NCBI GenBank assembly: GCA_030522415.1
Contig: CM060106.1
Coordinates: forward strand, 31,779,485-31,843,484
From: Channallabes apus
Taxonomy: Eukaryota > Chordata > Actinopteri > Siluriformes > Clariidae
DNA length: 64,000 nucleotides
Reading direction: 5' to 3'
In this document: in pieces, positions 1 to 64,000 of the stretch
Layout: every line of letters begins with the position of its first letter
How positions within the stretch are numbered: position 1 is the first letter of the stretch
The notes under the pieces: model-generated
Told to the model about the DNA's origin: nothing
What the model saw: only the letters and a program-made list of their open reading frames with translations
Databases searched by the model: none
Position numbers and translations under genes: made by a program

Positions 1-1815
1 CCATCACATTGTCCTAACACTATAATCTTTGCAGATGTTTATATAATTGTGCCACAAGAGAATAAAATGTATATGGTTTTCATTTTCAAACTCCAGACAA
101 AGCCTTAAAGTACAGTAATGAGGTCTAAAAAAGGTTCATCATGGGTTCTGTGGTTCCTTAGTTTCCTAAAAGTTTACTTCTCTCCTAAGAAAACATTCTG
201 TGGGGATCTGCAGAAAGACCTTATGTGTTCCTCTAAATGAACAACTCTTTGCAACCAAGATTGAACAACTTTTTTTATATATTTTCTAGAAGCGTAGCAT
301 TGCTACCAGAGTAGATACACAAAAAGCATCCTTTGCTGCAGCTGCATGAATTATGCTTAAGTTTTTTCCTGCCTACTTTGGTATTCGTTTTATCTTTCTG
401 ATGGTGAAGCTATATTGAGAAAAAGGCAGGAGTTTCGGTGAAGGACTTTCTTTCAAACTTCAGTTGCATTCTAACGTACCGTAAGGAAAATGTTGGGTAA
501 AAGTTTCATATGAAGACAAATACACTTCAACACATTTCTGCCCTGTACACTATCTCCACTATAACCACCCAAACAACCTTTTCCCTTAAACCTCAAATTT
601 AAGAATCTTGGGAGCAGCTTATGACTGATCTCTAGACGGCCTGCAGGTTGTGTATGCACTGTATAGGAAAGTGTGTAGGTGTGAGAGTTAACTCCCCCCT
701 CCTCCCTCTGTCTCTCTGGGTATGATTTATGGGCTGATCCTGGCTTGGAGGGAGTTGACAGTTGCTTTCATTTTCTTATATATATTTTTCCCCTCCTTGC
801 CAAGGTCATGAGGGAGTAGGGCCTCTCCAAGCACCCCCTCACCACCACCACCACTTTCTCTAACCACCACCACAACACACATCTCATCCCAACAACCACA
901 CCCCCCACCCATGGTCCCTCTCTGCCTCCCCCCTCTCTTACTCTTCTGATGGTCCCATGAATCATCCCGTCTTCCCATCGAACCTCCTGAAACCTTCTTC
1001 CCAACTCGCCCGCCCTGACTTCCGCCATCCTTCTTCATTCCTGCTAACAATTTGGTAATGAAATATTGATTTTTAGTTAGATTCAAATAGATGTTATTAA
1101 GTTTGCATTGATAAATTGCACCCCATTCCAACATTGTAAACGCCATTGCCAAAAGAAGAGGACATGAGACTGGACACACCTGGGGACTTGCTGAGTGGGA
1201 TAGCTAAATTGGGTGCGGAAATTTATTCCCACACATGGTTTTGGGTGTTTCTTAAATGCCAGCCATTTGTGGTGATGCTAATAACGTTGGAAGGAGTTGG
1301 AGCTAGGAAACAGTGTTAGCAAACCTGGAAGCATTCATCACTCCGGATATTGTTCCATATGTCTACATAACAATCATGATGACAGGCTAAAATGCATGCT
1401 ACATGCAGCTATACATGATACATGATTCTACAGTACATGAGTGTTTTTTGAGGCTGACATCGAGGCTGGAAGTCACAAAGTATAAGTACTTCAAGGTTCT
1501 GCGTTTACTAAAAATCTACAAGTGTTAATGTAACTAATACTTATTGCTATCAGTTGCCTATGAGCATGCTTGTTGCAGTAGTTGACAGACTTATCATTTA
1601 AGCTAGTGATTCTACTGTAGGTTGTAGCTAAAGTTAGTTATAGTAGTTAGTTAGCTTCAGTTAATTTCTAGAAAAATGGCAGCTAATTACTATAAGCACT
1701 AGTTTATTAAATTAGGCACAGGGTCTTAATACAGAGTCCAGATGTTTTCTGCATTTGTGACTCCTTTAGAAAGTGGAAGGTTTGTTTAAATTGAATTTAA
1801 TTAAATTCAATTGAG
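1..1815. other. Intergenic DNA, no gene seen
   Basis: No coding signal is visible. A pyrimidine/C-rich tract (about 785-1030, with CACCACC runs) creates long chance frames on the minus strand that have no protein-like composition. Footprint heptamers (see 7549) start at 111, 1429 and 1613. Confidence 0.6.
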
Positions 1816-1824
1816 TTCTACCCC

Positions 1825-2346
1825 GTCAACATGGTGGCTTAGTAGTTAGTACTGTCGTCTTGCACCTACAAGGTCCAGGTTTGATTCCCAGATGCAGATT
1901 AGGCGAATTGGCATTCCCAAATTGCCCGTTGTGTGTATGTGTGTGTGCCCTGAAATGGAAACCCTGTTCCCCCAACCCTTAGGTCTCCTGGGATAGACTC
2001 CAGGTCAACCGCAACCCTGAATACAGGATAAAGCTGTATAGACGATAAGGGAGTGAGTGACTTCTAGCATGGTCTTGCACCTCCAGGGTCCAGGTTTGTT
2101 TCCCAGCCAGGTTCTATTCTTTGTGTGCACAGAATTTGCATGTTCTCCCTGTGCCTTGTGGGTTTGCATCCACCGTCTAAAGGTATGCAGATTAGGCTAA
2201 TTGGCCTTCCCAAATTGCCTGTTGTGTGTGCCCTGCAATGGATTGGCAATCTGTCAAGGGTGTACCCCACCATGCCCCCCTGGATACAGGATAAAGCGTA
2301 TACATCTGGATACATCTAAAGTATAGATGATGAGTGAGTGAGTGAA
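1825..2346 (+). repeat. Tandem pair of tRNA-headed SINEs (DANA/Mermaid-like)
   Basis: Two SINE copies stand head to tail. The first (about 1825-2060) has the tRNA-like head (GTGGCTTAGTAGTTAG, then a B-box-like GGTTTGATTCCC) but lacks the middle of the family consensus. It runs into the 3' part (GGATAAAGCTGTATAGA) and a GAGTGAGTGA tail. The second (about 2061-2346) starts inside the head and is longer. The whole pair is flanked by the 9 bp direct repeat TTCTACCCC (1816-1824 and 2347-2355), which suggests one integration of a dimer. Insertion of the second copy into the simple tail of the first is the alternative. Confidence 0.8.
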
Positions 2347-2355
2347 TTCTACCCC

Positions 2356-61839: not shown

Positions 61840-62105
61840 CTACAGCTTCTCAGAGTCGATGTAGAGAGATGTAGTTTGGGCCGTGTCACTTGCAAAAGCG
61901 AATCCTCCCGCTGCAACTCCCTGGCTAAAGTGTCCATCATCAGGGTTGCCAGATGCATCAGTCTCGATTCGCAAGCGTTTGAAGCGTCGATCTGGATACT
62001 GGCTGTTGTCAAAGGGCATGCGGTGGACACACAGTACGTGGGTCTTTAAGTTACCCTTCTGTGAAGCGCTATAGGGGCAGTACTGACACTGGAACGGCCT
62101 CTGAC
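61840..62105 (-). CDS. Terminal coding exon of a C2H2 zinc-finger protein
   Basis: On the minus strand an acceptor site (a CT-rich tract, then CCTGCAG) precedes an exon starting at 62105. The first complete codons give QRPFQCQYCPYSASQKGNLK, then THVLCVHRMPFDNSQYPDRR: a classical zinc finger, C-x2-C at the start and H-x4-H at the end, with a TGEKP-like linker before it split by the intron (phase 1). A basic stretch FKRLR and a Gly/Ala/Ser-rich tail follow, ending SLYIDSEKL at TAG 61842-61840. The finger has the residues needed to bind zinc and probably DNA, so this is likely the last finger of a nuclear transcription factor. I do not recognise the family member with certainty. The rest of the gene lies beyond the right edge. 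The surrounding repeat-poor, enhancer-like DNA fits a developmental regulator. Confidence 0.8.
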
Positions 62106-63779
62106 CTGCAGGAGAGAGAGAGAGAGAGAGAGTGAGAGATACATAGAGTTTTCTTATGAAGAAATATATTTATGGCTTGAGGTTGATTATGTACTGTAGG
62201 TAACAGCTAACTAGTACGTTCATCTCAATGCAGAAATGTCTGACTTGTTGAATCCAAGTAAACAGTTTTTCTCAAGTCTTCGATTTTTATCCATGACCAC
62301 GTTTCTAATGAAAGATCAAGTGTATAGATAAAAAAAATAAATACAGATACAATACATTTACATTAGAATAGTGGCTCTATACGAAAAAACTGTTAGCAAT
62401 ACCTCATGCAGGAGATCTAATGTTCTTTAAAAAAAAAAAAAAAACGTCTTATCCATTCAAATAGAGACATGGACTTTGCTTGATATTCGGTGCACTGCAT
62501 ATTGGATCTGATCACTGCTGAGTTGTACACAAAGGCCCCTATTAGGCCACACAAGCTCGTATGAGAGATGCAGATTACGTGCCTATCATACCGGTGCTCC
62601 CTTATCAGCTCCTTCCACTTAAAGCAAAGCCAGACACTCTCAGCTGCACACTACTTTAGGACATTAATAACAGTACATTTGCTCTCCATTTTTCTCAATT
62701 CAATTTGAAAAGCACTAAATCAAATTAACATGGGGTTTAAAATAGCAGCCGGCGAGGTCCACTGCATGTAAAGAGCCTGCATTAAAGGTGTGGCAGGAAT
62801 GCATTGTGGATACCGGCCGTCTCCACACGCGCACACACACACACACACACACACACACACACACACACACACACACACACACACACACACTGTGTGTGAG
62901 GCTGAAAAAGACAGGATTTATAAGCATTTGGAGTTTGGCTTTGGAGTCTCGGCAGCTTTCAAACACTACAATGTCTGCTCAGACTGCAGCACAAAGGGGA
63001 TTGCTACAAGTTTGGGGGCTTTCGATGTTCCAGTTGTCTGAATTTTTCGATAAGCGAGCCGGCGCCACACAATGCTGGCCTACTCTTATTCATGCGCCCT
63101 TTAATTTCACACTCCCTTACATTACGCCAAGTCCGAGAGGCAGAATTTCCTCATCCGATTTTACACTCAAATAAAAAGCCACTGTTGACCCAACAAGTAC
63201 CTCAACACACTTCTACACACACACACACACACACACACACACACACACACACACACACACACACACACACACACTTTCTCACTCCATCCCTTCCCTCCTC
63301 CGCCGAAGTGCTGGCAAAACACAGATTGAGCTCTCTGTTATTGTCAGAGCAGAGTCCGTCTAAGGTAAAGAGCGCATCCATTTTTAATCCAGTATGAATA
63401 AAAGATCCTCTGTAGGTTTGCTCCTTAGAGAGAGAGAGAGAGTGAGAGGGGGGGGGGGGTGGCAATGCCTTTTATCTTATTATTATTATTATTATTATTA
63501 TTATTATTAGCAGTGGTCGTAATAGTAGTAGCATAGTAATTGCAAATTCTACTCCAGTACAAACACATTACACATTACATTAACCAAGTAACACAAAAAA
63601 GCAGTTCACCAAAGTTGTTGAACCTAAACTGGTCAACACATTATACAGTGCAAACTTAAACTGACTATTATACTCTAAGGAATGTAATGAGACAGGTATA
63701 AGACCAACCTTGGAGTATCGATCCATTTTTTTTTAAAAATAACCTTGCTCAGGGTAGAAACAGTGGACAGGAAAGATAT
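62106..63779 (-). other. Intron of the zinc-finger gene
   Basis: Starts with the acceptor and a (GA)n/(CT)n tract at about 62110-62132. Contains (CA)n at 62827-62890 and 63217-63273 and (TTA)n at 63477-63509. 62940-63110 is unique and relatively GC-rich without a frame flanked by splice sites. No further exon found in the window. Confidence 0.55.
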
Positions 63780-63780
63780 A

Positions 63781-64000
63781 CAGTGGCTTGCAAAAGTATT
63801 CGGCCGCCTTGAACTTTTCCACATTTTGTCACATTACAGCCACAAACATGAATCAATTTTATTGGAATTCCACGTGAAAGACCAATACAAAGTGGTGTAC
63901 ACGTGAGAAGTGGAACGAAAATCATACATGATTCCAAACATTTTTTACAAATAAATAACTGAAAAGTGGGGTGTGCGTAATTATTCAGCCTCCTGAGTCA
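63781..64000. mobile_element. DNA transposon end, cut by the window edge
   Basis: Begins TACAGTGGCTTGCAAAAGTA, with the CAG start after TA that is typical of Tc1/mariner-like elements. It continues TTGAACTTTTCCACATTTTG, TCACATTACAGCCACAAACA and CAAATAAATAACTGAAAAGT, words of a repeat common in fish genomes. The right end lies outside, so its size and exact family are open. Confidence 0.6.

Follow-up and report, generated by a model that had tools for sequence, protein, structure and literature searches.

The heptamers TACTGTA and TACAGTA (together TACWGTA) are present in large excess in a 64-kb stretch of the genome of the fish Channallabes apus (C3:31779485-31843484 of 1.165 Gb; hereafter the window), and the copies in excess are almost certainly the excision scars of Sleeping Beauty-type Tc1/mariner elements. 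A sequence-only reading of the window had proposed Tc1-type footprints, and this interpretation is supported by an excess in window and genome, by a target-site preference in the flanks, by 5-bp insertions of both forms at several TA sites in repeat copies, by nesting, and by a Tc1 family with matching CAG ends.

The cut and repair steps that generate such scars are established for Sleeping Beauty. An element would insert at a TA, preferably within ATATATAT, and duplicate it. On departure, the transposase would cut each end three bases in from its terminus, so that CAG/CTG 3′ overhangs remain next to both TAs; end-joining would pair these overhangs, and with the middle base fixed by mismatch repair the site would read TACAGTA or TACTGTA, a net gain of five bases. 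The Sleeping Beauty scar is indeed given as TAC(A/T)GTA in the parts of PMC3432063 and PMC4378557 that describe it.

Heptamer excess in window and genome

The feature that concerns us spans the window:

1..64000, no strand: field of 98 TACWGTA (52 TACTGTA and 46 TACAGTA), 10-13 expected by chance.

A direct recount gave the same 98 copies as the sequence-only reading, and 96 of its 98 listed starts were exact (51/52 for TACTGTA, 45/46 for TACAGTA), the other two being displaced by ten (the heptamers start at 22722, not 22732, and at 23680, not 23690). The excess it reported is real, with different figures: AT content is 60.6%, not about 63%, and chance predicts 10-13 copies of the pair, an excess of ~8-10 fold, rather than about 14 copies and seven-fold. 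The expectations for TACTGTA/TACAGTA were 6.4/6.3 from composition, and 4.8/4.9, 5.8/5.5 and 6.0/6.6 from Markov models of order 1, 2 and 3. Those of order 4 (15.9/16.4) and order 5 (35.0/29.1) are raised because the sequence is short and these models hold the heptamer's own 5- and 6-mers. Ranked by z-score (order 3), the two heptamers were seventh and eighth in the window, below simple-repeat words only. Among TA-NNN-TA words their z-scores were 19.3 and 17.3, compared to 2.9 for the next-best word, and none lay inside any array found by Tandem Repeats Finder. As the two heptamers are reverse complements, their near-equal counts reflect strand symmetry, and the 1:1 ratio therefore lends no support to random orientation or mismatch repair, as had been suggested. 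Corrected for chance, ~85-88 copies remain, one per 730-750 bp, whereas the earlier estimate of one preserved excision per 650 bp included chance copies.

The excess extends to the whole genome, which contains 979,603 heptamers (489,833 + 489,770) in 1,164,683,209 bp, or 0.84 per kb. The reversed words, a rough guide only because they lack TA, occurred 260,532 times (130,514 + 130,018), leaving an excess of 719,000. Scaling the order-2 expectation of a 200-kb sample (35.9) to the genome gave ~209,000 by chance and an excess of ~770,000, so that the excess overall lies at ~0.72-0.77 million. With ~82.6 million TA sites projected genome-wide, close to 1% carry a scar. For the sample, twenty 10-kb loci were taken from contigs C1-C16 at round coordinates (264 kb with the window). 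It held 151 heptamers, present at 20/20 loci with 2-15 each, which was 4.2 times the order-2 and 3.8 times the order-3 expectation. Among 8,181 pairs of 7-mers in the sample the heptamer pair ranked 25th (z 19.2), and the words above it resemble microsatellite and satellite sequence. Thus the comparison with a Markov background that had been proposed confirmed the excess, with all-7-mer ranks from window and sample and a count from the genome. Mouse, if its genome is taken as 2.7 Gb, comes to a heptamer density of ~0.11 per kb. This follows from the 'over 300,000 locations' at which both motifs are placed in the mouse genome in the relevant part of PMC4378557.

Could the word be abundant for reasons unconnected with transposons? 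The heptamer is an odd palindrome of a type that some DNA-binding proteins prefer, and might therefore be a regulatory motif, or simply a product of composition. Markov orders 0-3 fail to account for it and other TANNNTA words lack a comparable excess. Its flanks also carry a transposon target preference, and in repeat copies it takes the form of an insertion (40/42, below), so we consider this explanation extremely improbable. Spread inside a dispersed repeat or a short MITE (miniature inverted-repeat transposable element) would need a common flanking sequence, and none was seen in the 264 kb, where 249 heptamers lie within 247 distinct 23-mers.

Flanks, empty sites and nested scars

The heptamer flanks show the ATA-TA-TAT preference of Sleeping-Beauty-like Tc1 elements, a palindromic, AT-rich preference around the TA. 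In the window, symmetrised flanks had A at.50 (position -3), T at.44 and C at.24 (-2), and A at.41 and T at.17 (-1). The corresponding values at all 4,506 window TA sites were A.31; T.37 and C.15; and A.32 and T.33. The mean match to ATA and TAT on the two sides was 2.70 of 6 for window heptamers, compared to 1.99 for TA sites (P 6e-9) and 1.98 for other TANNNTA words (P 4e-7), and the result repeated in the 200 kb of other loci (2.72 vs 1.99, P 1e-13). The proportion of TA sites bearing a heptamer rose with target score, from 0.52% at score 0 through 0.67, 0.97, 2.12 and 2.81 to 5.8% at score 5. It fell to 1.41% at score 6, perhaps because such sites are mostly AT arrays. The insertion flanks of the young Tc1 family described below (33 distinct) had A.73 at -3, T.52 at -2 and A.70 at -1. 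The zebrafish Tc1 element ZB likewise prefers ATATATAT, according to the part of PMC7913693 on its targets.

Repeat copies allowed filled and empty sites to be compared. The heptamers concerned are:

34417..34423, minus strand: heptamer in a SINE-like repeat (SINE, short interspersed element); the TA is empty in most listed genomic copies.
54360..54366, minus strand: probable scar; the diverged copy at 43727-43856 aligns gap-free only with five bases left out.
5832..5838, plus strand: heptamer, unlikely to be a scar; a similar CTGTG stretch occurs in the other copies of its SINE.

For the repeat around 34417, the pattern CTGTAATGTA-N(0-5)-TATGTGACAAAT, open to empty and filled forms, matched 473 places genome-wide. 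Of the first 100 listed, 88 were empty, 10 held a scar and 2 had another change. Of all 42 places where the flanks stand exactly five bases apart, 40 had a scar, at the first TA (21 CAG and 10 CTG) or the second (6 CAG and 3 CTG); 2 were others. Filled and empty copies were otherwise alike and did not separate. This comparison covered 39 of 41 sequences (24 filled, 15 empty), leaving out L051 for its orientation and L054, which has AACAGTA. The within-minus-between distance was -0.007, and 225 of 1000 shuffles were as low; with five classes the figure was 715 of 1000, and the best of 412 column tests gave P 0.017.

The heptamer at 34417 was also considered as an inherited part of its repeat, and it was present in 19 of the 20 copies fetched. 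That result was biased because the query itself held the heptamer, and the idea was rejected when the open pattern gave 88 empty places of the 100 listed. These same copies (20 of the 39 others listed; one had AACAGTA), together with the location of 34417 and 5832 in repeats, are what speaks for carriage by a dispersed repeat. Given that query-biased choice, the diversity of the 23-mers and the 88 empty copies, we regard carriage as very improbable.

A second family gave the same result, in a retroelement that appears DIRS-like from its structure:

7469-13365: DIRS-like retroelement; its terminal repeats are inverted, and an RNase H-like similarity falls just under the Pfam cut-off.
7549..7555, plus strand: scar inside the left-hand inverted terminal repeat, five extra bases relative to the paired repeat.
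13193..13309, minus strand: paired terminal repeat with an empty TA site.
7556..13370, plus strand: retroelement interior without a heptamer, 249 TA sites.

With five bases removed, the repeat around 7549 aligned gap-free with 13193-13309 over 117 columns (96.6%); otherwise five gap columns fell at the TA. The terminal repeat occurred at 670 places genome-wide, and of the first 100 listed 94 were empty, 4 held a scar (7549 among them) and 2 had an extra TA, so that 4/4 of the 5-bp insertions were scars. Hence in the two families studied in depth the heptamer has, as had been predicted, added a net five bases to a TA that was already there, and most of the listed copies have the empty form; this is a statement about these families and not about every heptamer. 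In principle the heptamer could be ancestral, since TACTGTA has two TAs and loss of five bases between these short direct repeats could restore a single TA at many copies. The predominance of empty copies (88/100 and 94/100), and the extra bases that occur in both forms at each of two TAs of the SINE-like repeat (21, 10, 6 and 3), an arrangement hard to produce by loss, leave this explanation scarcely credible.

A paralogue test of 247 of the 249 heptamers in window and sample (two were too near an end) gave an exact 5-bp empty site for 6 of 18 heptamers with a spanning copy, one of which, 5832, is doubtful. This compares to 10 of 173 control TANNNTA words (Fisher P 0.001, or 0.007 without 5832).

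The retroelement also bears on timing. Its interior, an interval picked after the gap was seen, held 0 heptamers against 5.7 expected (P about 0.003), and the whole element held 1 (7549) against 5.8 (P 0.02). The deficit therefore fits insertion of this single element later than most scars, making it a possible dating marker for them. One-mismatch neighbours of the heptamers were near background, at 230 vs 221 in the window and 716 vs 687 in the 200-kb sample, so that most scars look young. The neighbours gave an age estimate of 1.4% per site (interval 0-4.6%), and as their background is over-dispersed we claim only 'young'.

Close to the retroelement, a scar interrupts a relic coding sequence:

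13861..13867, minus strand: frame-shifting scar inside a Tc1 transposase relic, with peptides in different frames on either side.
13684..13994, minus strand: Tc1 transposase relic, the part aligned to SB100X; further stops inside.

Around the scar, the peptide KKTI (13866-13877) is read in one frame and PTVKHGGG (13837-13860) in another. Joined across the TA, the only reading compared, the relic aligned with Sleeping Beauty SB100X (5cr4, E 1.7e-23), and it probably extends upstream of the aligned part. Pfam gave a weak match to the joined relic (DDE_3, E 0.056, under the cut-off) and no match to the unjoined reading.

Several heptamers in the window overlap or abut:

20834..20845, no strand: nested double scar TACTGTACAGTA, opposite orientations.
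33866..33877, no strand: nested double scar TACAGTACTGTA.
59381..59392, plus strand: nested double scar TACTGTACTGTA.
31794..31807, plus strand: two abutting scars TACTGTATACTGTA.

The 264 kb contained 8 doubles, against ~0.1 expected (order 2 or 3), 6 in like and 2 in opposite orientation. Genome-wide, TACTGTACAGTA occurred 6,478 times compared to 146 for its reversed control; it is beyond the reach of slippage and is thus evidence for nesting. The scar rate per TA would predict a few thousand TACTGTACAGTA, the order of magnitude observed. Abutting pairs of the form TACTGTATACTGTA numbered 1,641 + 1,626 genome-wide, compared to 34 + 36 for reversed controls. Neighbour gaps of up to 60 bp numbered 13 in the window against 9.5 expected (P 0.15), and 16 against 8.3 in the 20 sampled loci. 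We also observed a triple overlapping scar at C1:310131-310147, with TACTGTA starting at 310131, 310136 and 310141.

Several observations weigh against reading the heptamers as scars throughout, or limit how far that reading can be taken. Heptamer counts miss excisions in which flanking bases were lost. Sites were polarised by repeat copies only, with two families in depth; a spanning copy was found for only 18 of 247 heptamers, and for these the commonest pattern was an empty site in 5, an identical heptamer in 4 and something else in 9. The heptamer at 5832 is probably native: among the 4 copies that both forms matched, the intact form scored higher in 3 and the empty form in 1. Scars in the SINE-like repeat are unequal relative to its orientation (27 CAG vs 13 CTG), perhaps because mismatch repair favours one strand or because copies share descent. 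Shared descent may indeed link some filled SINE-like copies, and likewise the three scars that occupy the second TA in the terminal repeat of the retroelement. The flank preference is weaker at scars than at standing insertions, and 2 AT-rich repeat words among 60 frequent 7-mers outscore the heptamer on the flank measure. All five doubles of the 200-kb sample share one orientation, and slippage could produce these. Finally, heptamers reach 1.53 per kb in the window, 1.8-fold the mean of the genome.

Candidate source of the scars

Which elements left the scars? A genome search with Pfam PF01498 returned 38,959 first-look candidates, and among the 150 scored many lay in open frames, often of 350-371 amino acids. 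A 1.6-kb Tc1 element was present in all twenty fetched loci (L023-L042); over the longest match, identity to the copy in L042 was 94-100%. Complete copies begin with CAGTGGTGTGAAAAACTATTTGCCCC directly after TA and end in CTG followed by TA, and ends of the form TACAG...CTGTA predict exactly the TACWGTA scar. The element has terminal inverted repeats and a TA duplication, and the one copy analysed for domains, L042, encodes HTH_SB, HTH_Tnp_Tc3_2 and DDE_3, that is, a Sleeping Beauty helix-turn-helix and a DDE transposase. This CAGTGGTGTGAAAAAC family is young, and some copies have open transposase frames. Its ends numbered 29,474 genome-wide (up to 2 mismatches), which amounts to ~14,700 copies at two ends per copy. 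In the 200-kb sample two copies were full-length and a third had an internal deletion; the window had only a 148-base match at 70%.

The open transposase of L042 (901-1950, minus strand) is 94% identical to reedfish and Xenopus tropicalis proteins, which suggests horizontal transfer among distant vertebrates. Named protein matches in general were mostly from fishes, with some from frogs. Within the L042 element (678-2290), 0 of 73 TA sites had a target score of 4 or more where the sample would predict 7.4, as though suitable targets for elements of its own type were missing.

Judging from these ends, the scars were probably made by the resident CAGTGGTGTGAAAAAC family together with relatives that have the same CAG end. 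One such relative begins at the edge of the window:

63777..64000, plus strand: start of a second CAG-ended Tc1-like element, TA then CAGTGGCTTGCAAAAGTATTCGG, running past the window end.

It is tentatively possible that other Tc1 families, or several jointly, made most of the scars. The 15-base start of the 63777 element occurs 3 times in 264 kb, and the PF01498 candidates are many, with 150 of 38,959 scored. The CAGTGGTGTGAAAAAC family, young and with partly open frames, is the commonest TA-CAG 15-mer (6 in 264 kb), although single scars are not assignable to a family.

As anticipated, scars far outnumber visible Tc1 elements, with ~52 excess heptamers per standing copy of the CAGTGGTGTGAAAAAC family, a figure that would be lower if other CAG-ended families contributed. 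Scars would have arisen in the germ line and then drifted to high frequency, while element lineages excised and reinserted many times at a fairly level copy number; scars would outnumber elements because each lineage hopped repeatedly. Alternatively, most scars could come from elements that stayed for only one or a few germ-line generations and were gone without ever having reached high frequency. The ratio of ~50:1 over standing copies is what such hit-and-run events would leave, but a long series of ordinary hops per lineage yields equal counts, and we think the hit-and-run account unlikely. It is probable that close to 1% of TAs record a past Tc1 visit, that recorded excisions stand at ~50:1 over main-family copies, and that small repairs preserving the flanks are nearly all canonical.

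Apart from these elements, the window has a possible C2H2 zinc-finger coding exon (61843-62169, minus strand), with Pfam matches below cut-off and 0 heptamers. We presume that it resembles ZNF536.

Comparison with known systems

Transposons are usually counted by what remains, whereas here departures can be counted from one assembly. Excision rate, repair fidelity, target choice and site re-use would be measurable from a single genome without a pedigree. If our reading is true, one assembly records an excision history, including nested visits and the dating of other repeats. The predicted mutation class is a specific frame-shifting 5-bp insertion, of which transposon excision would be a leading source in this genome. 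Among the matches listed in openly licensed literature (most subscription papers lie outside this scope) there was no report of a genomic field of such scars, and both heptamers appeared as whole words only in two laboratory studies of Sleeping Beauty. The part of PMC5953449 that matched uses 'footprints' in a loose sense, not for excision.

The seven bases and the TA target are identical to those of the Sleeping Beauty footprint as described in parts of PMC3432063 and PMC4378557. In contrast to that footprint, known there from laboratory remobilisation, the heptamers here number nearly a million and form a natural field within a single fish genome. ZB, an element native to zebrafish, shares the Tc1/mariner superfamily, youth in a fish and a palindromic AT target. 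It differs in having 20 full-length copies, compared to ~14,700 here by ends, and no genomic scar field is given for it in the part of PMC7913693 concerned. The closest likeness in scale is the study of DNA transposon excision in Asian and African rice, which also treats excision scars genome-wide. The relevant part of that study gives 94 putative excisions, 8 of them perfect, with insertions exceeding excisions, near 2:1 for Mariner (PMC4423477). In C. apus, unlike rice, a single defined scar prevails at the sites checked, and scars outnumber the standing copies of their likely source.

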